A DNA stretch of 39,636 nt from the NCBI GenBank assembly GCA_947626515.1, contig CANQSL010000009.1, forward strand, positions 1 through 39,636, written 5' to 3'. Below, one piece after another: positions 1 to 12,957 of this stretch (its first letter is position 1; each line of letters begins with the position of its first letter). The notes under the pieces are model-generated. The model saw only the letters and a list, made by a program, of their open reading frames with translations, was not told the origin of the DNA and made no database searches. The translations under genes and the position numbers were made by a program. The DNA is from an uncultured Bacilli bacterium (GTDB taxonomy: Bacteria; Bacillota_I; Bacilli_A; RF39; UBA660).

Positions 1-569
1 ATTCAACTTCTTGTATGAAAACACAATTTGATAATTGGTTTAATGAACAATTTACAAATACACAAGATAAATTAAAATATGAAACATGGAATTTAGGAGA
101 TTTAGAAGCATTTTATGATTCTGTAGGTAATATAAAAGATTATAGTAATAATCTATTATATTTTAATACCGCGCTTAGAGTTTGGCATTTAATACTTCCA
201 GTAACTCTACTAAAAAGTGGAAAAGAAAGTATAGTTAAAGACTACGTTGCAACATTAAATGTAGATGAAGTAGCATTTGCAGGAGGAGTTCGGAATATGC
301 CAAATATCAGTTATTATTTGTATAATACTGCACAAATGTGGGGATTATTATCTTTATTTAAAATACAAAATAATTCGATACATCCGTATGTTATTACAAA
401 TGAGAATTTTAAAAATCAATGGTATTCTGGAGAAGGTTCTATAATTGAATATGGAATTTATACTAATCATAATTTTGTTAGTGAATATTTAAGACCATCC
501 ATAGTACTAAAAAGAGGAATAAAATTAACAGATGGAAATGGATTAAAAACAAGCCCATATAAAGTATAA
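1..569 (+). CDS. C-terminal part of a repeat-domain surface protein (5' end outside window)
   Basis: This is the 3' end of a gene that starts before the window. The frame is open from base 3, and the residues before the first ATG (Ser-Thr-Ser-Cys at 3-14) continue the family pattern, in which a Cys-Met-Lys comes just before the WFN segment. Visible domain marks are WFNEQF, TWNLGD, VDEVAFAGG, RPSIVLKRGI and a terminal DGNG..TSPYKV. They match the later halves of the domains in the next two genes. No reaction is known for the domain; an extracellular or cell-surface place is inferred from the membrane segments of the relatives downstream. The layout loosely resembles the uncharacterised DUF6273 family, which needs a profile search. 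The next gene follows after about 40 bases with no terminator between, so co-transcription is likely. Confidence 0.75.
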   Translation, partial: STSCMKTQFDNWFNEQFTNTQDKLKYETWNLGDLEAFYDSVGNIKDYSNNLLYFNTALRVWHLILPVTLLKSGKESIVKDYVATLNVDEVAFAGGVRNMPNISYYLYNTAQMWGLLSLFKIQNNSIHPYVITNENFKNQWYSGEGSIIEYGIYTNHNFVSEYLRPSIVLKRGIKLTDGNGLKTSPYKV

Positions 570-612
570 AGATATTAAATAAAGAAATATAAAAGTATAG
601 AAGGTGAAAAGG

Positions 613-2073
613 ATGAAGAAAATATTAAAAAATAAGATTTTTTTAATATTAACAATATGTGTAATATTAGTAATATCAATAAATCTAATAACATATACGT
701 ATTCAAGATATGTATCAAAAGCAGATGTATTTGTAGTATCAAATACAGGAAGTTTGAAATGTGATGCAATAATAGATGCAAAAGATGAATACATAGAAGA
801 TAATGAAAGATACTTTTATATAAATGTAAAAAATAGTAAAGATAATATAGAATCAGATACAGATATAGGATATATATTAACAATAGAAAATATAGAAGAT
901 TCAAAAGGATTATATAGATATATAGATTCATATGGAAATAGTAATAATGAATATAAAGACAAGTTAGAAATAGAAGAACATATATTAAATAAAAATAATA
1001 AAGAAGAAAGATTTAAGATAAGAGTAAAAAGTGAAAATGCAATAAAAACAAAAATAAAATATAAAGTAAAAATAAATTGTTATCAAAAAGAGAATACAGA
1101 TATAGTAAATCCATATAAAGAAAGTACACTAGCTTATAATATATTTGAAAATGCAAAGAAAGCATATTTAGAAAATAGTGAAGATAGAACAATATTATCA
1201 AAAACACCAAAAACAATACCAGTACAACAAATAAGTGGAGAAAAAGAAAAAACATTATCAATGACAGAAGATGACTATGGTAATTCTTACTATTATAGAG
1301 GAAATGTTACTGATAACTATTTAAATTTCAATAATATGTGCTGGAGAATAGTAAGAATAGAAGGAGACGGAAGTATTAAATTAATACTTTATGATAAAAC
1401 AAAAACATGTAAAGATGCAACAGGAGGAGACAATGCATTTATAGGAACTGGTCAATATGGTTATAAAATTGGTACAATTGACGAATTAGAAAATATTGAA
1501 ATACCAGACTATGAAAATTGTACAGCTAATAAAGAAACTTGTGCATATCCAAAATTACAAGAATGGTATAACGAAAATTTGATTAGCCAGGAGGATTCAT
1601 TAAAAAATGAAATATGGAATATTGGTGATATTGAAACTTTATATAAAGATGAAGAAGAACTTAACTATGGTTATTATGCATATTTTGATAATGGGCATAG
1701 ACTTTCAAATAAAAATTTAAGTTCAAATTATGCAACTTTATTATCAAAAGGAGTATCTTTTGAAAGTTATATAGGATTATTAACATTCGATGAAGCTGCA
1801 CTTGCAGGCGTTAAATATGCAGATTCGAATGTGAAAAATAATAATATATATTTAAATTTAAATGGTGTAACAGATAACACTGTTATGATGCTATTATCTC
1901 CTATGGGAATATGGCAAAAACAAGCGGGTATATATACTTTAGATTTTCAAAATTTTCATCCAGGAAATATAGGGGTTAGAGCTAATTTTATTATAAGACC
2001 CTCTATTACACTAAAATCAGGAATAAATTTAACAAGTGGAGATGGAACAAAAGAAAATCCATATACTGTGTAA
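613..2073 (+). CDS. Membrane-anchored surface protein with one CWRIVR/TADE repeat domain
   Basis: The start is taken as the ATG at 613, six bases after AAGGTG; an in-frame GTG at 604 lies in the ribosome site itself. A hydrophobic segment (residues about 6-27) ends in TYTYSRY and acts as signal or anchor. About 125 residues of probable beta-sandwich follow. Then comes one full copy of the array domain: LAYNIFENA, TLSMTEDDYGNSYYYRGN, CWRIVRIEGDGSIKLIL, paired cysteines in ENCTANKETC, a WYNENL..IWNIGDI segment, LTFDEAALAG, RPSITLKSGINLTSGDGT and NPYTV at the end. The gene lies between a partial relative upstream and a broken three-domain relative downstream, with short gaps and no terminator, so one operon is likely. 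Function is unknown; adhesion or another surface role is inference. Confidence 0.8.
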   Translation: MKKILKNKIFLILTICVILVISINLITYTYSRYVSKADVFVVSNTGSLKCDAIIDAKDEYIEDNERYFYINVKNSKDNIESDTDIGYILTIENIEDSKGLYRYIDSYGNSNNEYKDKLEIEEHILNKNNKEERFKIRVKSENAIKTKIKYKVKINCYQKENTDIVNPYKESTLAYNIFENAKKAYLENSEDRTILSKTPKTIPVQQISGEKEKTLSMTEDDYGNSYYYRGNVTDNYLNFNNMCWRIVRIEGDGSIKLILYDKTKTCKDATGGDNAFIGTGQYGYKIGTIDELENIEIPDYENCTANKETCAYPKLQEWYNENLISQEDSLKNEIWNIGDIETLYKDEEELNYGYYAYFDNGHRLSNKNLSSNYATLLSKGVSFESYIGLLTFDEAALAGVKYADSNVKNNNIYLNLNGVTDNTVMMLLSPMGIWQKQAGIYTLDFQNFHPGNIGVRANFIIRPSITLKSGINLTSGDGTKENPYTV

Positions 2074-2129
2074 AATCTTATTAAATTATTTAAATAATAA
2101 AACGTGGAAAGGAGTATTGCAGTTAATGT

Positions 2130-2939
2130 ATGAAGAGAAAAAATATAATAATATTAGCGATATGTATAATAATTATATTAAGTATAATAGGATTTACATA
2201 TGGAAGATTTACCTATGAAAGTGAAACAATAGGAAGTGTAACAACAACATCAAGAAATCCATTTGAAATAGGAACATTAGCATATAATATAGTTAATAAT
2301 GCAATGCATACTAAAGATAAAGAAAGTACAATCTATAGTGAAGAACCATTAACAACACCAGCAAAAGAAATAAATAGAGAAGATGAAAGAACATTATCAG
2401 TAACAGAAGATGACTATGGAATTTCATACTATTATAGAGGAAATGTAAAAGATAATTATATAGATTTTAATGGAATGTGTTGGAGGATAGTAAGAATAGA
2501 AGGCGATGGAAGTATTAAGTTAATACTAGAAGATAAAACAAATACATGTAAAGATGCAATAGGAGGAGAAAATGCAAGTATAGGAACAGGTACTTTTGGA
2601 TATAAAGGTGAAAAAACAGAAGACAATCCATACAAAGCAGATTATGAAGAATGTACTTCTAATAAAGACGATTGTATGAAAACGAAATTTGATATTTGGT
2701 TAAATGAAAATAATTTTGATAAAAGACTGTTAAAAGAAGACACATGGAATATAGGAGATATAGGAACTATATATAAATATGATAGTACGGAATTATCGCC
2801 AAATATTAAAAGTTGCGGAGGACATGAAAGTTGTTTTTATGAATCAAGAAAAAGATTACAGGTAGAAGGAACAGCAAGATTAAAATCCACAGAAAAAGCA
2901 ACAAAAATAAATTCATATAGGTACATTAACAGCAGATGA
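2130..2939 (+). CDS. N-terminal fragment of the three-domain surface protein
   Basis: The start is the first ATG after an in-frame TAA at 2124, with AAAGGAG at 2108-2114 somewhat far upstream. Residues about 4-22 form a hydrophobic anchor ending in FTYGRF, similar to the TYTYSRY end of the anchor in the gene before. A short linker leads at residue about 43 into NPFEIGTLAYNIV, then TLSVTEDDYGISYYYRGN, CWRIVRIEGDGSIKLIL, the cysteine pair ECTSNKDDC, and WLNENN..TWNIGDIG. The last ten or so residues are out of frame and unlike any relative. If translated as written, this gives a membrane-anchored protein with a truncated first domain. Confidence 0.6.
   Translation: MKRKNIIILAICIIIILSIIGFTYGRFTYESETIGSVTTTSRNPFEIGTLAYNIVNNAMHTKDKESTIYSEEPLTTPAKEINREDERTLSVTEDDYGISYYYRGNVKDNYIDFNGMCWRIVRIEGDGSIKLILEDKTNTCKDAIGGENASIGTGTFGYKGEKTEDNPYKADYEECTSNKDDCMKTKFDIWLNENNFDKRLLKEDTWNIGDIGTIYKYDSTELSPNIKSCGGHESCFYESRKRLQVEGTARLKSTEKATKINSYRYINSR
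2451..2550 (+). repeat. Near-identical coding repeat, copy A (partner 3421-3520)
   Basis: This block codes for DNYIDFNGMCWRIVRIEGDGSIK and the residues after it in domain 1. By direct base-by-base comparison it matches 3421-3520 in domain 2 at 97 of 100 positions. That is much closer than the flanking parts of the two domains, which suggests recent duplication or gene conversion limited to the core. Confidence 0.85.
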
Positions 2940-3081
2940 AGCAGCATATGCAGGAGCAATATATTATCAAGATAAAATACATTCAAATTATTATTTATTT
3001 AAAAATTTTGATTTTTTACTTTTAACACCATCAACATATTATGGTGATGGTGCAACATCAACTGTTTCATTTTCTGATATT

Positions 3082-5112
3082 ATGTTTATTTTGCAGTCAA
3101 GAGGTTATATAGGAAATGGTGAAATTGGCTATAAAAGAGCTTTAATTCCATCTATAGTCTTAACGGAAGGTATAAAATTACTAAGTGGAGATGGAACAAA
3201 GGATAATGCATATAAAATAGATGAAAATCCGTTTGAGAGTGGAACACTTGCATATAGTATAGTAGATAATGCAATAAATTCAAAAGTAGAAACAAGTACA
3301 ATATATTCACCATCTCCAAAGACAATACCAGCACAAGAGGTAAATGGAGAAAATGAAAGAACACTTAGTATAACAAAAGATGATTATGGAAATAGTTATT
3401 ATTATAGAGGCAATGTACAAGATAATTATATAGATTTTAATGGAATGTGTTGGAGGATAGTAAGAATAGAAGGAGACGGAAGTATTAAGTTAATACTAGA
3501 AGATAAAACAAAAACATGTAAGAATGCAACAGGAGGAGAAAATTCTTTTATAGGAAGAGGTACTTATGGCTATAAAACAGAGGATGATATTGAAAAATTT
3601 GATTATTTAAATTGTACTGATGATAGTAGCACTTGTATGAAAAATAAATTAGAAACATGGTTTAATGCTAATTTTACAAATTTAAAAGATAAATTAAAAG
3701 AAGATACATGGTATATAGGAGATACAACTAATCTTATAGATAAATATTATCAAACAGGTTCAAGATTAATGCTTAAACATAATGCAACATTAAAGGAAAC
3801 AGAAAATAATTTTGATAGTTATATAAGTATATTAACAGCAGATGAAGTAGCATTTGCAGGGGCTAAGGTAATACAATCAAGTAATGGCTCTGGCAATGAA
3901 AATTGTTATTTACATTTACCTTTAGAAGCAAACAAATGGTGGCGAACATTAACAACATATAGACAATCTAGTGATGAAGCACATGGAACCTATGATGTAG
4001 CATTCTGTGTATATCAAACTACATTTGTTGCAAATTGCGAAGTATGGCAAGCACCTTATATTAGACCATCCATAGTCTTAAACTCAGGTATAAACTTAAT
4101 AAGTGGAGATGGAACAAAGGATAATGCATATAAAATAGATGAAAATCCATTTGAGAGTGGAACACTTGCATACAATATAGTAAATAACGCAATAAATCCA
4201 AAAGAAGATACAAGTACAATATATTCACCAGTTCCAAAGACAATACCAGCAAAAGAAGTAAGTGGGGAAAATGAAAGAACACTGTCAGTAACAGAAGATA
4301 CATTAGGACGATCATATTACTTTAGGGGAAATGTAATAGATAATTACTTAAACTTTAATAATATGTGTTGGAGAATAGTTCGTATAGAAGGAGATGGTTC
4401 AGTAAAATTAGTACTTCAAGATAGTGAAGAAAATTGTAATGCTAATACTTCTCAAAACAATGCTACTATAGGTGAAGGTACATTTGGTTATAAAGGAGAT
4501 GGAACAATAACTAGTTCTAGAAAAATAGATTATGAAAATTGTGAAAAAGATAATGAAACATGTATGAAAAAGAAACTTGATACTTGGTTTGAAAATAAAT
4601 TTAATAATATAAATAAAGAAAATTATATCAAAAAAGAAAAATGGTTTTTAGGAGATATAGATAATTGGTATAGAAATGCAAATACATTAATACCTGGCTA
4701 TAATGGGCAAGAAAACGCATATTCTTCAACATGGTATAGATTAGTAACAAAAGGAACTACAAATTTATTAGATAATAAAAATGCAATAGAAGATTATATA
4801 GGAATATTAACAGCAGATGAAGCAACACTTGCAGGAACAGCATATAGTGAAAATGCTAAAACACATTATTTATATTTAAAAGATAAAAAATATTGGACAC
4901 TATCTCTTGCCTATCATGAATCAGATTTACCAAAAGATGATAAATCAGGAGATAGAATATTAATTATAGATGGACATAATGGAGGATTACATTATCAACC
5001 TTTACAAAGTGCTTATTTAATAAGACCTTCTATAGTACTAAATAAAGATATAAAAATAACAAGTGGAGATGGAACAAAGGAAAATCCATATATAATAGAG
5101 AATACTAATTAA
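3082..5112 (+). CDS. C-terminal part of the three-domain surface protein, two intact domains
   Basis: This frame is really open from before 3082; the ATG used here lies inside domain 1 and has no ribosome site, so separate translation is doubtful. It carries the end of domain 1 (IPSIVLTEGIKLLSGDGT) and two full domains of about 306 and 322 residues. Each runs NPFESGTLAY, PKTIPA.EV.GENERTLS, YYYRGN or YYFRGN, CWRIVRIEGDGS, a TCMK.KL.TWF segment with paired cysteines, W.IGD or WFLGD, ILTADE..xAG, RPSIVLN and SGDGT..NPY or NAY. It ends in ENPYIIENTN with no sorting signal or membrane helix. A terminator lies directly after the stop. Ligand and reaction are unknown. Confidence 0.7.
   Translation: MFILQSRGYIGNGEIGYKRALIPSIVLTEGIKLLSGDGTKDNAYKIDENPFESGTLAYSIVDNAINSKVETSTIYSPSPKTIPAQEVNGENERTLSITKDDYGNSYYYRGNVQDNYIDFNGMCWRIVRIEGDGSIKLILEDKTKTCKNATGGENSFIGRGTYGYKTEDDIEKFDYLNCTDDSSTCMKNKLETWFNANFTNLKDKLKEDTWYIGDTTNLIDKYYQTGSRLMLKHNATLKETENNFDSYISILTADEVAFAGAKVIQSSNGSGNENCYLHLPLEANKWWRTLTTYRQSSDEAHGTYDVAFCVYQTTFVANCEVWQAPYIRPSIVLNSGINLISGDGTKDNAYKIDENPFESGTLAYNIVNNAINPKEDTSTIYSPVPKTIPAKEVSGENERTLSVTEDTLGRSYYFRGNVIDNYLNFNNMCWRIVRIEGDGSVKLVLQDSEENCNANTSQNNATIGEGTFGYKGDGTITSSRKIDYENCEKDNETCMKKKLDTWFENKFNNINKENYIKKEKWFLGDIDNWYRNANTLIPGYNGQENAYSSTWYRLVTKGTTNLLDNKNAIEDYIGILTADEATLAGTAYSENAKTHYLYLKDKKYWTLSLAYHESDLPKDDKSGDRILIIDGHNGGLHYQPLQSAYLIRPSIVLNKDIKITSGDGTKENPYIIENTN
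3183..3333 (+). repeat. Domain-junction repeat (partner 4101-4251)
   Basis: The junction between domains 1 and 2 (SGDGTKDNAYKIDENPFESGTLAY at the protein level) recurs at the junction of domains 2 and 3, exactly 918 bases downstream. The first 58 bases differ at one position only; identity falls off after about 100 bases. In-frame recombination between the copies would remove or add exactly one domain. Confidence 0.8.
3421..3520 (+). repeat. Near-identical coding repeat, copy B (partner 2451-2550)
   Basis: This is the domain 2 counterpart of the block at 2451-2550. The three differences are two in the GDG codons region and one in the codon before CK. A related but more diverged version is in the single-domain gene near 1330-1430. 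Confidence 0.85.
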
Positions 5113-5127
5113 TTTTAGTATTTTTTT
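5101..5127 (+). terminator. Stem-loop terminator after the surface-protein array
   Basis: AATACTAA (5101-5108) pairs with TTAGTATT (5115-5122) around a six-base loop and runs into seven T. It overlaps the last codons of the gene before it. Confidence 0.75.
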
Positions 5128-7884: not shown

Positions 7885-10239
7885 ATGGTGAAAAGATATA
7901 AATTCCTAATAGTTACTTTGTTAGCTTTTTTAACTTTTTCTTTGAATGCATTTGCTAAGGAAATGAAACTTGAAGAATTAAGTAAAGAAATAGAAAATAT
8001 AAATCCTAGCGCACAAAGTGCTTATATTATAGGAAAATATGTATTTACTTCTGAACATGAATTGACTACTCAAGATATTATGCTTGCTGCAAGAAGTATT
8101 GATGTTAAAGATAAACTTGGTGGTACAGAAAATGATTCAATTTACGGTGAAATGACAATTCATGAAATTATAAAAGTTTATAATCCAAAAAGTCATAAGT
8201 CATTAGGATGGATTGCTAGTAGTAATACTGATGGCGAAACTGTGCTAGATGCAAAGACTAATCTAAGTATTCAATATATTGATTATGAAAGATTAGAAGA
8301 AGCTACAGAATTTGACGTTACTACAGATATCGCTTTAGCAGAGTATAAAAATACACTTGCTGGATATAAATTTGATGAAAAATTTCAATCTAAACCAAGT
8401 GAAAAGTTATATAGTAAAGATTTAGCTTTGGCGAAAGATGGAAAACTAACAGGGTTAGTTAGAATGAATTCTAAAGTTGATAATAAAGTATTCCCAGATG
8501 AAACACGTACAGGATTTTATGTTCCAATTGTAATAACTGTACCAAATGCAAATAATGAAACTACAGTAAAAATCAAGAATTGGTGGGGAGAAAAAACTAT
8601 AAAATATAGTGAATTTGAACACAAAGATACAAAAGAATCAGGAACAGTAGTTTTAATTGCTTTAAATAAAAATGAGGATTCAAAAGAAACTACAATTATT
8701 GTAGACTTAGATGGTGATAACCAAGTTTATGGAGAAAAAAAATATACGATAGATTGGTCTAATTTAGTATTTGAATCATCATTATATGAAACAATTAAAA
8801 AAGATGCTAAATCTGATACAAATGTTAATTTCCAAAAAGTACCATCTGAAACTAATGGTCAGGGAGTATTAACAATTAATTCTACTATAGCCTCTCAATT
8901 CCCAATTTATTATTATCGTGGAAAAGTGGATAATAATGTAATATTTAATAATATATGCTGGCAAATTGTAAGAACAACAGATACTGGATCAATAAAATTA
9001 ATTTACAATGGTTTACCTAATAATGGTAAATGTAATAATGAAGGAGAATCATCAGTAGTTACAAATATAACAGATAATAAACATAGTTTTAGTACTGGAA
9101 GTGGTTATCCAACATTTGTAGGTTATACAGTTCCAACAATTGATCAATTTAAAATTAAAACAAATGCTGGTATTGCCTTTGCAAGAGCATCGGTGTTTGA
9201 TAGTATGAGATATGCGAAAGATGTAGAATATAGCAATGGAGTATATCATTTAAAAGATAGTGTTGAAATTGATAAATCTTTATTTGGTACTAGTGATAAT
9301 CCTCAAATAGGACAAAAATATACATATAGATGGTTAGAAGATAATGAGATAAATACTAAGGAGTTTGAAATTACAACAGGAAACATTGAAGATGCAAGAA
9401 ATAAATTGATGGAAAATCGTTACACGTGTATTCCTAGTAGTAATGCTTACGTAAAGGATGGCGTCACGACATGTGAAAAAGTTGCATATATTGTATATGC
9501 TAGCGATACATATACTAGTGGAGTTGGACAGCAAAAAACAGGCGTTATTGGTTATATTGAATTTCAAGGTGGCATAAAATTTAATTCAAAAATAATTGAA
9601 GATTTTAATAGCCATGAAAAAGCTGTTAAATCACAAATTAAAATAAATAATGATAATTTTTATGCAAGTTATATTGAAAATACTCCTAAAGCGGAAGCCT
9701 TAATAGATAAAACTGCTAAATATTGTAATAGTCGTTCTATTAATGATGGTGGATATTACTCAACAGATCATAGTAAGTCTACACTATTAGAAACAAAAAC
9801 AAAAACTAGAAATTCTACAAATATTAAATATTCTATATTGTATAAGAATTTCTCTAACTTATTAGATGGAAATAATCCAACATTAGAATGTGATGAAAAT
9901 GATACATATTCAACAATATTAGGTGATGAATTTTACTATCCAATTGGGCTTTTAAGTGCCGACGAGGCTAATTATGCTGGTGTAGTATTTAATGCTAATG
10001 ATAGTAGTGAATCAAATACTTATTTAAATACTGGGGCTGCTTATTGGTTAATGACACCTGCTTATGTAAATGGAACAAATGCATATATGCTAACCATTTC
10101 TGCTCTTGGTAGATTTAATACTACAATAAGTACTATGGCAGTGCAAACTTATTTAAAACCTGTAATAGCTCTTAAAGGCTCTGCTACTTATTCAGAAGGT
10201 AATGGAACTGTTGAGCATCCTTATGTTATAGTACAATAA
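7885..10239 (+). CDS. Secreted protein with a divergent copy of the array repeat domain
   Basis: A clean signal peptide (residues 1-24, LIVTLLAFLTFSLNAFA) suggests export. Residues about 25-300 are an N-terminal region I do not recognise. From about residue 330 the marks of the array domain appear in order: FPIYYYRGKVDNN, FNNICWQIVRTTDTGSIKLIYNG, much later LLSADEANYAG, a WLMTP segment, LKPVIALKG, and EGNGTVEHPYVIV at the end. This domain is longer than those at 1-5112 because of an insertion of about 150 residues with two cysteine-containing segments. AGAAAGGA lies eight bases before the ATG, and the gene is 14 bases after the BIG2 protein gene, so the two products may work together outside the cell. 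No catalytic motif is recognised. Confidence 0.8.
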   Translation: MVKRYKFLIVTLLAFLTFSLNAFAKEMKLEELSKEIENINPSAQSAYIIGKYVFTSEHELTTQDIMLAARSIDVKDKLGGTENDSIYGEMTIHEIIKVYNPKSHKSLGWIASSNTDGETVLDAKTNLSIQYIDYERLEEATEFDVTTDIALAEYKNTLAGYKFDEKFQSKPSEKLYSKDLALAKDGKLTGLVRMNSKVDNKVFPDETRTGFYVPIVITVPNANNETTVKIKNWWGEKTIKYSEFEHKDTKESGTVVLIALNKNEDSKETTIIVDLDGDNQVYGEKKYTIDWSNLVFESSLYETIKKDAKSDTNVNFQKVPSETNGQGVLTINSTIASQFPIYYYRGKVDNNVIFNNICWQIVRTTDTGSIKLIYNGLPNNGKCNNEGESSVVTNITDNKHSFSTGSGYPTFVGYTVPTIDQFKIKTNAGIAFARASVFDSMRYAKDVEYSNGVYHLKDSVEIDKSLFGTSDNPQIGQKYTYRWLEDNEINTKEFEITTGNIEDARNKLMENRYTCIPSSNAYVKDGVTTCEKVAYIVYASDTYTSGVGQQKTGVIGYIEFQGGIKFNSKIIEDFNSHEKAVKSQIKINNDNFYASYIENTPKAEALIDKTAKYCNSRSINDGGYYSTDHSKSTLLETKTKTRNSTNIKYSILYKNFSNLLDGNNPTLECDENDTYSTILGDEFYYPIGLLSADEANYAGVVFNANDSSESNTYLNTGAAYWLMTPAYVNGTNAYMLTISALGRFNTTISTMAVQTYLKPVIALKGSATYSEGNGTVEHPYVIVQ

Positions 10240-10461: not shown

Positions 10462-10500
10462 CTAACTATAATAGAGGGGAGTATTATAAAATAGTTGTAT

Positions 10501-12957
10501 ATGAAAAAAATAAAAATATTTTTTGCTTTTGTTTTAGTAGTTTTATTAATGCAATTTAAGAATGTTTATGCTGATAGTAAAGTTTATGTGGATAAGGATA
10601 CTGAAGGTCAAAACACTTATACTACTTTAACTGAGGCGGTTCAAAATGTTTCTAATAATGGTACGATTTATTTGAAAGATAATATAGATGCTACTCAAAC
10701 TATAACAATTCCAGAGAATAAAAATATTACTATAACATCAGAGAATAGTGCAAAAACAATATCAAAAAATTATAATGGGGTTTTATTTTATGTTTCACCT
10801 TCTGCAACATTAACTTTGGAAAATGTTATATTAGATGGGAAAAATGTTGAGGCAACTGGAGATAACTTTTTTGTAAATGTAAAAGGTGTATTAAATATAA
10901 AAGATGGTGCGGTTTTAAAAAATAATACATCTAAATGGAATGCTGGTGCTATTAAATTAGAGGCAGGAACATTAAATATGACTGGTGGAACAATTACAAA
11001 TAATAAGACTGAATATGGTGGAGCCATATTTGCAACAAATGGTGATTCTTCTACAATTAATATAAGTGGTGGAGAAATTACAAATAATAATGCAACACTT
11101 TATGGTGGTGGTGCAATTAATATTACAGGAGGTTATACATTAAATATTAGTGGTGGATCTATAACAAATAATCACTCAGAAAATTTTGGTGGTGGTGCAA
11201 TAAAAGTAGATAATTCTAAAGTATTTATAACTGGAGGAAAAATAAAAAATAATACTGCTACTAATGGTGATGGTGGTGCTATTTGGTTATATAATACAGA
11301 TTGTACAATAAAAAATGTTGAAATATCAGGAAATGAAGCTAAAGGAAAATTGCCAGATGCTTCTTATAACAATGTTCGTGGTGGTGCTATATTTGTTCAC
11401 GGAGCATCTAAATTAAATATTGAAGAAAATACAATAATTGATAAAAATAAGGCTCCATATGGCGGTGGAATATATGCGCTAGATAGTTCTATTGTTAATA
11501 TGAATGGTGGAATAATAGAAAATAATACAGCATCAGTTAATGCAGGTGCTATATGTGCGTTTTCAAATGATGGTTCTCCAACAATAAATATAAACAAAGG
11601 AGAAATAAAGAATAATATAAATACTGGAGTAGATATTAATCCATCTTTTGTTAGTGATCAAGAATTTAACGGTGGTGCAATATATATTGGTGAGAACGCT
11701 AATTTAAACCTTTCAAAAGCTGTTATATATAATAATAGAAATGAGCAAGCCTTTTTAAATAATCGAAATCAAGATAAAGGAATTTATGCTAACGGAATAG
11801 GATTATGTCCAAATTCAAAATTATATATTACTAATGGAGGCGCAATATATAATAATAATTATAATGGAGGAGCAGATATTCTATTTATTCCTGTATCAAC
11901 AAATATACCTTTCCAAGAGGGAGAAGAATTATATATTTCAAATTATTCATTAGGTGGTGGTACATATAATTGGACAAATTTTGCTAATAAAAATGTAATA
12001 CATGGTTTTCAAAAAATAACTGAAACTGAAAAACTAAGTTATATATCACACTTATCTAACGCTGATAAAAATAAAGCTGTAAAAGTGGCTGATGTAATAA
12101 TAACAAATAACGTTTCTAAAGCAGTTTATGGCGGTGGAGCTATAATGTGTAATGGAACTTTAAGAATGGGAACTTATGGGGATTTAAAAATAACTGAAAC
12201 TGTAATTGGAAAAGAAGATGACGATTTAAAATATGATTTTACTATTACTTTAGATGATGCAACTATTGATGGTAGATATGGTGATATGGTATTTGAAAAA
12301 GGTGTTGCTGAAATAGAATTAAAAAATAACGAAAGTATGACTGCAAAAGATTTACCTTCTGGTATTAAATATACAGTAGAAGAAAAGAATGTACCTAAGT
12401 ATGATACAGTATTATCAAAAAATGATACTGGAACACTAAATGATTCAATAACAAATGTAGATTTTATAAATCTAAATGTTAAACCAATAAAATATGGAAT
12501 AACAGTAGAAAAACAAATAAAAAATATTGATAAAACAAATGATATATTTAAATTTGAATTAAAAACAGAAGATCAAGACGGTCTTATTATGCCAGAGAAC
12601 AATGTTTTGTCTATTAAGGGTAAGAAAAAGGCTACATTTGACGAAATAACATTTTATAAACCTGGAATATATACTTTTACAATAAATGAAATTAATGAAA
12701 AATTAGAAAATTATCAATATGATTCATCTTCATGGAAGGTGATTATGAATGTTGAATTAAAAGATAAAAGTTTAGTTATTGAATCTGTAAAATTCGTAAA
12801 AGATAATAAAGAATATGATAAGATTACTTTTGTAAATCAATATATTAAAAACCCACAAACATATGATAAAACAGTATTATCTATAATAAGTTTATTAATT
12901 TTATCTATAATATTAGTTGTGATAAGATTAAGATATAAGAAGGTAAAAAGCTATTAA
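10501..12957 (+). CDS. Beta-helix adhesin with pilin-type domains and NPQTYD sorting signal
   Basis: The start is ATG 10501; an in-frame TTG at 10495 would add two residues and sits nearer the GAGGGGAG site (10474-10481). A signal peptide ends near VYA. Residues about 30-590 form a right-handed parallel beta-helix with about eleven GGAI-like turns (YGGAIFA, YGGGAINI, FGGGAIKV, RGGAIFV and others) and many NN ladders. Two Ig-like modules follow. The second, from about residue 675, has the features of the streptococcal pilin isopeptide-linker (FctA) type: VEKQI, FKFEL, FTINEI and a final FVNQY. The tail reads NPQTYDK, a hydrophobic stretch of about 17 residues and RLRYKKVKSY, the pattern of a sortase sorting signal; NPQT recalls the sortase B motif NPQTN. 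No sortase is in the window. It has its own promoter and terminator. Surface adhesion is inferred. Confidence 0.85.
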   Translation: MKKIKIFFAFVLVVLLMQFKNVYADSKVYVDKDTEGQNTYTTLTEAVQNVSNNGTIYLKDNIDATQTITIPENKNITITSENSAKTISKNYNGVLFYVSPSATLTLENVILDGKNVEATGDNFFVNVKGVLNIKDGAVLKNNTSKWNAGAIKLEAGTLNMTGGTITNNKTEYGGAIFATNGDSSTINISGGEITNNNATLYGGGAINITGGYTLNISGGSITNNHSENFGGGAIKVDNSKVFITGGKIKNNTATNGDGGAIWLYNTDCTIKNVEISGNEAKGKLPDASYNNVRGGAIFVHGASKLNIEENTIIDKNKAPYGGGIYALDSSIVNMNGGIIENNTASVNAGAICAFSNDGSPTININKGEIKNNINTGVDINPSFVSDQEFNGGAIYIGENANLNLSKAVIYNNRNEQAFLNNRNQDKGIYANGIGLCPNSKLYITNGGAIYNNNYNGGADILFIPVSTNIPFQEGEELYISNYSLGGGTYNWTNFANKNVIHGFQKITETEKLSYISHLSNADKNKAVKVADVIITNNVSKAVYGGGAIMCNGTLRMGTYGDLKITETVIGKEDDDLKYDFTITLDDATIDGRYGDMVFEKGVAEIELKNNESMTAKDLPSGIKYTVEEKNVPKYDTVLSKNDTGTLNDSITNVDFINLNVKPIKYGITVEKQIKNIDKTNDIFKFELKTEDQDGLIMPENNVLSIKGKKKATFDEITFYKPGIYTFTINEINEKLENYQYDSSSWKVIMNVELKDKSLVIESVKFVKDNKEYDKITFVNQYIKNPQTYDKTVLSIISLLILSIILVVIRLRYKKVKSY

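Follow-up and report, generated by a model that had tools for sequence, protein, structure and literature searches.

PilE/PilS, VlsE and VlhA are surface repertoires that pathogens vary by gene conversion. The gut-associated Bacilli considered here are not known as pathogens. The gene family described here, carried by an uncultured Bacilli bacterium, resembles these repertoires in that it comprises many related surface genes with homogenized constant parts and with variable parts. One feature expected of antigenic variation by gene conversion, namely paralogues that recombine along their constant parts, was found as well. In contrast to the pathogen systems, silent partial cassettes and a single expression site are not seen here, and some of the variable heads recur across species. 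Searches of the open-access literature found no described system of this kind.

A second point of comparison is provided by the DUF6273 proteins of phages, which have been given a C-type-lectin-like fold and are targets of diversity-generating retroelements (DGRs) (PMC10743442; PMC11792537). Their variable hairpin is surface-exposed and lies at the C-terminal end of the domain, and their receptor-binding role is itself largely inferred (PMC10743442; PMC11792537). Our proteins share with these phage DGR targets (tentaclins) the Foldseek fold family, a variable segment in the C-terminal half of the domain, and the display of multiple domains. Unlike the phage proteins, they form a bacterial chromosomal multigene family, are membrane-anchored and bear heads in tandem; no DGR-type reverse transcriptase was found in the 95.6%-complete genome, and the diversity here appears to come from recombination and old divergence.

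Two further described proteins resemble parts of this architecture. The solved IgAse of Thomasclavelia ramosa (9qa6) is also a gut Bacilli surface protein, and its N-terminal domain is annotated as DUF6273 and called a double-size C-type-lectin-like domain (PMC12237041). The ligand of that domain is not known, and cleavage proceeds without it (PMC12237041). Foldseek aligns our full-length model of the one-head protein to 9qa6 over 312 columns with a probability of 0.96, but the E-value is only 0.016, and the IgAse has just one such domain, which is joined to a metallopeptidase in a protein anchored by sortase. TasA/camelysin (PF12389) resembles the stalk of relatives: the stalk of relative L068 scores 29.3 bits against a Pfam cut-off of 22.5, with an E-value of 0.007 to the NCBIfam TasA/camelysin model. 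Here the similarity concerns the stalk sequence of relatives alone, as the stalk encoded by positions 604-1107 has no match to PF12389. Likewise, no window protein matches the NCBIfam SipW signal-peptide and TasA family models.

The window, which is the whole stretch of 39,636 nucleotides that was analysed, is contig C9 of a 1.37 Mb assembly in 61 contigs. Named relatives are uncultured Bacilli, many of them out of rabbit, goat and rumen samples. Positions 1-5112 hold five copies of one domain of about 305 residues: one cut by the contig end, a single one in a larger protein, and three arranged head-to-tail and connected via two-residue linkers. A divergent sixth copy lies downstream (Table 1). 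An earlier note, made from the letters of this DNA, had described the five copies, and they are borne out: ten copies from the window's genome have more than 40 invariant columns in common and profile E-values within the genome go down to 6e-113, and chance is therefore excluded. The ordered sequence marks, the cysteine pairs and the NPY end are likewise as described. The five copies stand, but the gene with three copies proves not to be one frame and the sixth copy had been missed.

Table 1. Features of the domain locus, and the reverse transcriptase gene of the same genome (G000). Positions are those of the window unless a contig or locus is named.
Feature	Position	Strand	Details
Gene cut by contig end	3..569	+	~60% of a copy, from its C-terminal side, spanning profile positions 138-310; E 1.4e-41
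Copy within cut gene	3-566	+	C-terminal part only
One-head protein	604..2073	+	489 aa; AlphaFold pLDDT 84; hydrophobic helix residues 2-33, then TYSRY; all-beta stalk (predicted) residues 41-162; one head
Domain copy of one-head protein	1108..2070	+	profile E 1.4e-109
Homogenized tract	2029..2653	+	DNA 92% identical to G000:C13:857-1479
Three-head gene, first part	2130..2939	+	TYGRF-ending anchor and copy 1 until just before LTADE
Copy 1 of three-head gene, before break	2256-2933	+	
Copy 1, remainder	2911..3219	+	LTADE, variable hairpin, C-terminal end; shifted frame; 63.9 bits
Domain copy 2	3226..4137	+	AlphaFold pLDDT 95.3, pTM 0.93
Domain copy 3	4144..5097	+	ORF end = 5112
3' homogenized tract	5020..5126	+	DNA 96% identical to array end on C20 (1798-1903)
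Fourth gene of locus	7885..10239	+	signal peptide, unrelated N-terminal region, divergent insert-split domain copy
Pieces of sixth copy	8785-9102 and 9532/9898-10230		separated by insert
Retron reverse transcriptase	G000:C15:3641-4216 (L049:1345-2319)		near sortase gene

The three-head gene consists of two frames, the second (2911-5112) running to the end of the array, with the shift falling between 2911 and 2939, just before the LTADE of copy 1. A phase-variable repeat behind this break was considered and rejected. The site carries only a short TA stretch, and a second broken copy (L090:1660-1800) changes frame mid-domain at a position that does not correspond to the window's break; a programmed switch is therefore not supported.

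Other products that Pfam identifies at the locus are an M23/LysM hydrolase, one protein carrying Big_2/Listeria-Bacteroides repeats and another carrying a Spy0128-like isopeptide domain, which makes this a cell-surface gene region. The product of positions 10495-12957, just past the array, combines a Chlamydia PMP-type repeat, DUF7601 and Spy0128-like isopeptide domains, a set as found in pilin-type surface proteins. The start of the window is a contig end. Domain loci lie within 1 kb of contig ends in 27 of 32 cases in the genus mate G003 (p 6e-14) and at contig ends in 5 of 11 cases in the window's genome (p 0.002). Because of this excess, the true array at the window start is probably longer than the part that is seen. 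The genomes were assembled from short metagenome reads and break at the domain genes, and more copies may be hidden; such breaks fit repeats or mixed strains and limit certainty.

About 17 distinct domains are present in the window's genome and about 40 in genus mates. This figure of 17 was counted separately from the matches per genome, which include pieces and number 22 (window's genome), 39, 40, 16 and 5 within the genus in single-sequence searches. A profile search, which the earlier note had proposed as a check, matched 55 of the 58 genera sampled in the same Bacilli family, with 0-29 matches per genome. In a class-wide sample of 120 genomes, a single genome outside the family matched, weakly. 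The domain is found almost exclusively in this one Bacilli family. Two proteins on a contig labelled Candidatus Saccharibacteria RGIG6027 (L110) carry divergent copies, reflecting either inter-phylum transfer or a mislabelled contig. A domain-profile scan of viral contigs gave no match, and thus none of the sampled phages carries the array.

Window copies do not match DUF6273 in Pfam even at E=1, and searches of these copies against NCBIfam, and of the head proteins against PDB sequences, gave nothing meaningful. DUF6273 (PF19789) is matched by 15 of 66 homologous domains at E<=0.1, the best at 9.7e-8. Relative to the Pfam gathering score of 23.5 bits, the same-genome paralogue C16 reaches 23.6 bits and L102 reaches 26.3 bits. 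The latter, from the yak rumen bacterium RGIG10332, is one open frame of 3099 residues (L102:1-9297) with about six domain copies, far exceeding the window's tandem genes in length. Because there is no direct Pfam match, DUF6273 membership of the window copies runs via relatives and structure, and the copies are distant DUF6273 relatives that fall outside Pfam's own membership rule.

Structure prediction for one copy, also proposed earlier, gave a model of copy 2 (Table 1) that matches phage DUF6273 models. Foldseek against viral models (BFVD) yields a best E-value overall of 5.6e-7 with a probability of 1.0, and phage proteins named DUF6273 show fold similarity at E 2.5e-5 to 6e-4 with probabilities of 0.85-1.0. 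The PHROG match of the family is a Hoc-like decoration family. Neither the head alone nor the full-length model has a PDB match at E 0.001 or better; C-type lectins recur among the weak matches of the head alone, none of them significant, and it is by analogy with the DUF6273 literature that the heads may be assigned a C-type-lectin-like fold. The kinship to DUF6273 that the earlier note had seen therefore stands, but not its description of DUF6273 as uncharacterised, given a lectin-like fold, a role as DGR target and a solved member. The domain is most probably not an enzyme, and it is not wholly uncharacterised. Two cysteine pairs behave as putative disulfides should, with C75/C98 invariant in 57 of 57 copies and C130/C137 either kept or missing as a pair in 56 of the 57 (both in 36, neither in 20, one alone in 1). 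The most variable segment of the window model, residues 215-277, includes strands 239-250 and 254-262, and from its order along the chain this hairpin would correspond to the hypervariable hairpin of phage DUF6273 proteins. The segment from LTADE to RPSI, with its beta-hairpin, is likely the ligand face.

An N-terminal hydrophobic helix is common to relatives and ends in T-[YF]-[AGS]-x-[YFW], which takes the form TYAYF in many. The TYSRY and TYGRF ends, which had seemed special to two genes, are variants of this family-wide motif. In single-head proteins a stalk follows the anchor, whereas in the three-head gene the heads come almost directly after it. Paralogue C22 carries a Listeria-Bacteroides repeat slightly below the Pfam cut-off and a sortase-like NPQT-TM-charged tail at its C-terminal end, and a sortase is encoded in the same genome. 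The domain proteins are probably exposed at the surface, as judged from these sequence features, and the earlier proposal of a modular, membrane-anchored surface family is supported. Downstream of the C13 array, L009:4516-5064 encodes a headless stalk-like protein of 182 residues with a TYAYY anchor, after which come ORFs resembling ruvA and ruvB.

Within a genome, the core has a median amino-acid identity of 0.75-0.78, against 0.20-0.22 for the segment preceding LTADE and 0.14-0.15 for the one following it, in agreement with the earlier picture of a conserved scaffold with strongly variable segments around LTADE. Identity between heads is roughly 20-30% within a genome with a cross-species median near 25%, and heads differ by length as well as by scattered substitutions. 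However, the data do not support taking the variable segments for fast-mutating loops: particular heads persist across species. In C13:1947-2933 the head shares 80% identity with the L075 head in G003, that of copy 2 in the window is 67-69% identical to G003 L056:1553-2494, and cross-species loop identity reaches 83%. For the C13:1947-2933/L075 pair, synonymous divergence (pS) is 0.19 in the head versus 0.42 in the N-terminal segment, and heads of closely paired copies have dN/dS of about 0.4-0.8, where dN/dS and pS are simple pairwise estimates and pS is approximate and partly saturated. Individual heads, loops included, thus appear to persist between species under moderate purifying selection, and at least some seem to be old and kept. 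Other heads of the window's genome have no close partner among G003 heads.

The constant parts show the reverse pattern within a genome. The tract at 2029-2653 spans a gene end, the intergenic stretch, and the anchor and core of the next gene, and along it synonymous divergence rises from 0-0.05 to 0.4-0.7 nearing the right edge. Several independent gene pairs (L052/L062, L051/L052, L053/L088, and window 2130 versus C13:957) likewise jump from pS 0-0.05 over anchor, stalk and domain start to 0.4-0.6 at the conserved core. The contrast between anchor-side and head pS within the window's genome gives Fisher p down to 6e-8, and homogenized tracts also flank variable heads both 5' and 3' in L088/L091. 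Pure purifying selection on the constant parts is ruled out by the synonymous sites. Because the genes downstream of C9, C13 and C20 differ, these are true paralogous loci, and mixed-strain alleles in one bin are not favoured.

Trees of the two parts disagree. For the N-segment, the six array copies of the window's genome form one clade (95/87), whereas in the head tree three of those six pair with G003 heads (100/97-100). AU tests reject swapping the N and head patterns, the pairs at p 0.002-0.004 and the clade of six copies at p 0.0003 (log-likelihood losses 55-265), with tested clades that were named after the trees were seen. Grouping in the N-segment tree tends to follow tandem position (first, middle or last copy), as if like positions of different loci exchange. 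The jumps in pS and the AU results show that recombination has occurred. Together with the reversed cross-species pattern, they indicate concerted evolution of the constant parts inside each genome while at least some heads are kept. Homologous recombination between paralogues is the simplest source of the mosaics, and it is the junction between constant parts and heads that appears to move.

We therefore consider it probable that these genes provide the cell surface with a repertoire of lectin-fold binding heads, and that their constant parts undergo concerted evolution. Each protein would consist of an N-terminal membrane helix, a beta-sandwich stalk in single-head genes, and one to three DUF6273-like heads built on a C-type-lectin-like core. 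In each domain, the conserved half would serve as scaffold. About 17 different heads are present side by side in the genome. Gene conversion or unequal exchange between paralogous loci would homogenize anchor, stalk, core and C-terminal end per genome, and breakpoints in or around the conserved core would leave similar anchors carrying quite different heads, which would themselves be old and selectively kept. Binding is the function that fold and family suggest for the heads. We entertain more tentatively, as possible though on balance doubtful, the reading that this is a DGR-independent diversity system of uncultured gut Bacilli, in which lectin-fold heads are shuffled among membrane stalks via recombination in the core, strains hold different combinations of old conserved heads, and the shuffled heads would form a combinatorial receptor or antigen repertoire.

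The same mosaics could reflect active cassette switching, in which recombination moves heads from stalk to stalk within a population, so that cells or strains come to differ in their antigens or receptors. Such variation might help them to evade IgA or phage, or might alter their adhesion. An identical anchor joined to different heads, homogenized tracts 5' and 3' of variable heads, assembly breaks of the kind expected from repeats or mixed strains, and the broken copies in the window and in L090 all fit such switching. We nonetheless regard it as rather unlikely: in a comparison that covers one genome per species, the cross-species conservation of some heads suits a kept repertoire better, and most copies are complete genes, each with an anchor of its own, rather than silent cassettes.

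Because the sole solved relative belongs to an IgA protease, the heads might instead be enzyme or protease accessory domains, like the N-terminal domain of IgAse. This is quite improbable, since Pfam and NCBIfam reveal no catalytic domain in the window proteins and the family's matches are phage binding or decoration proteins. An ordinary birth-and-death family, made of old duplicates whose core is held by purifying selection without recombination, would account for a core conserved across all members and for old heads. It would leave unexplained why one side shows almost no synonymous divergence and the other side nearly saturated values, and why across species this divergence is lower in the head than in the core; the incongruent trees also speak against this scenario, which we judge highly improbable. 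Finally, DGR-driven hypermutation of the heads, as for phage DUF6273 proteins, is given next to no chance: the fold family and variable segment are those of known DGR targets (PMC10743442; PMC11792537), but RVT_1 has a single match in the genome, to a retron Ec107-like reverse transcriptase (PADLOC E 1.1e-126), which excludes the retroelement route as far as the assembly goes, and the heads vary in length besides substitutions, with some stable between species.

What is new in the system of concerted constant parts and separately kept heads is this mode of evolution. In phages, the fold is a proposed receptor-binding scaffold on which retroelements generate diversity. The gut bacteria described here, an entire family with small genomes, devote many genes to such a scaffold, with recombination appearing to replace retroelement mutagenesis. 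The pattern predicts one ligand per head lineage, kept across species, and these ligands would show what the uncultured bacteria attach to inside the gut.
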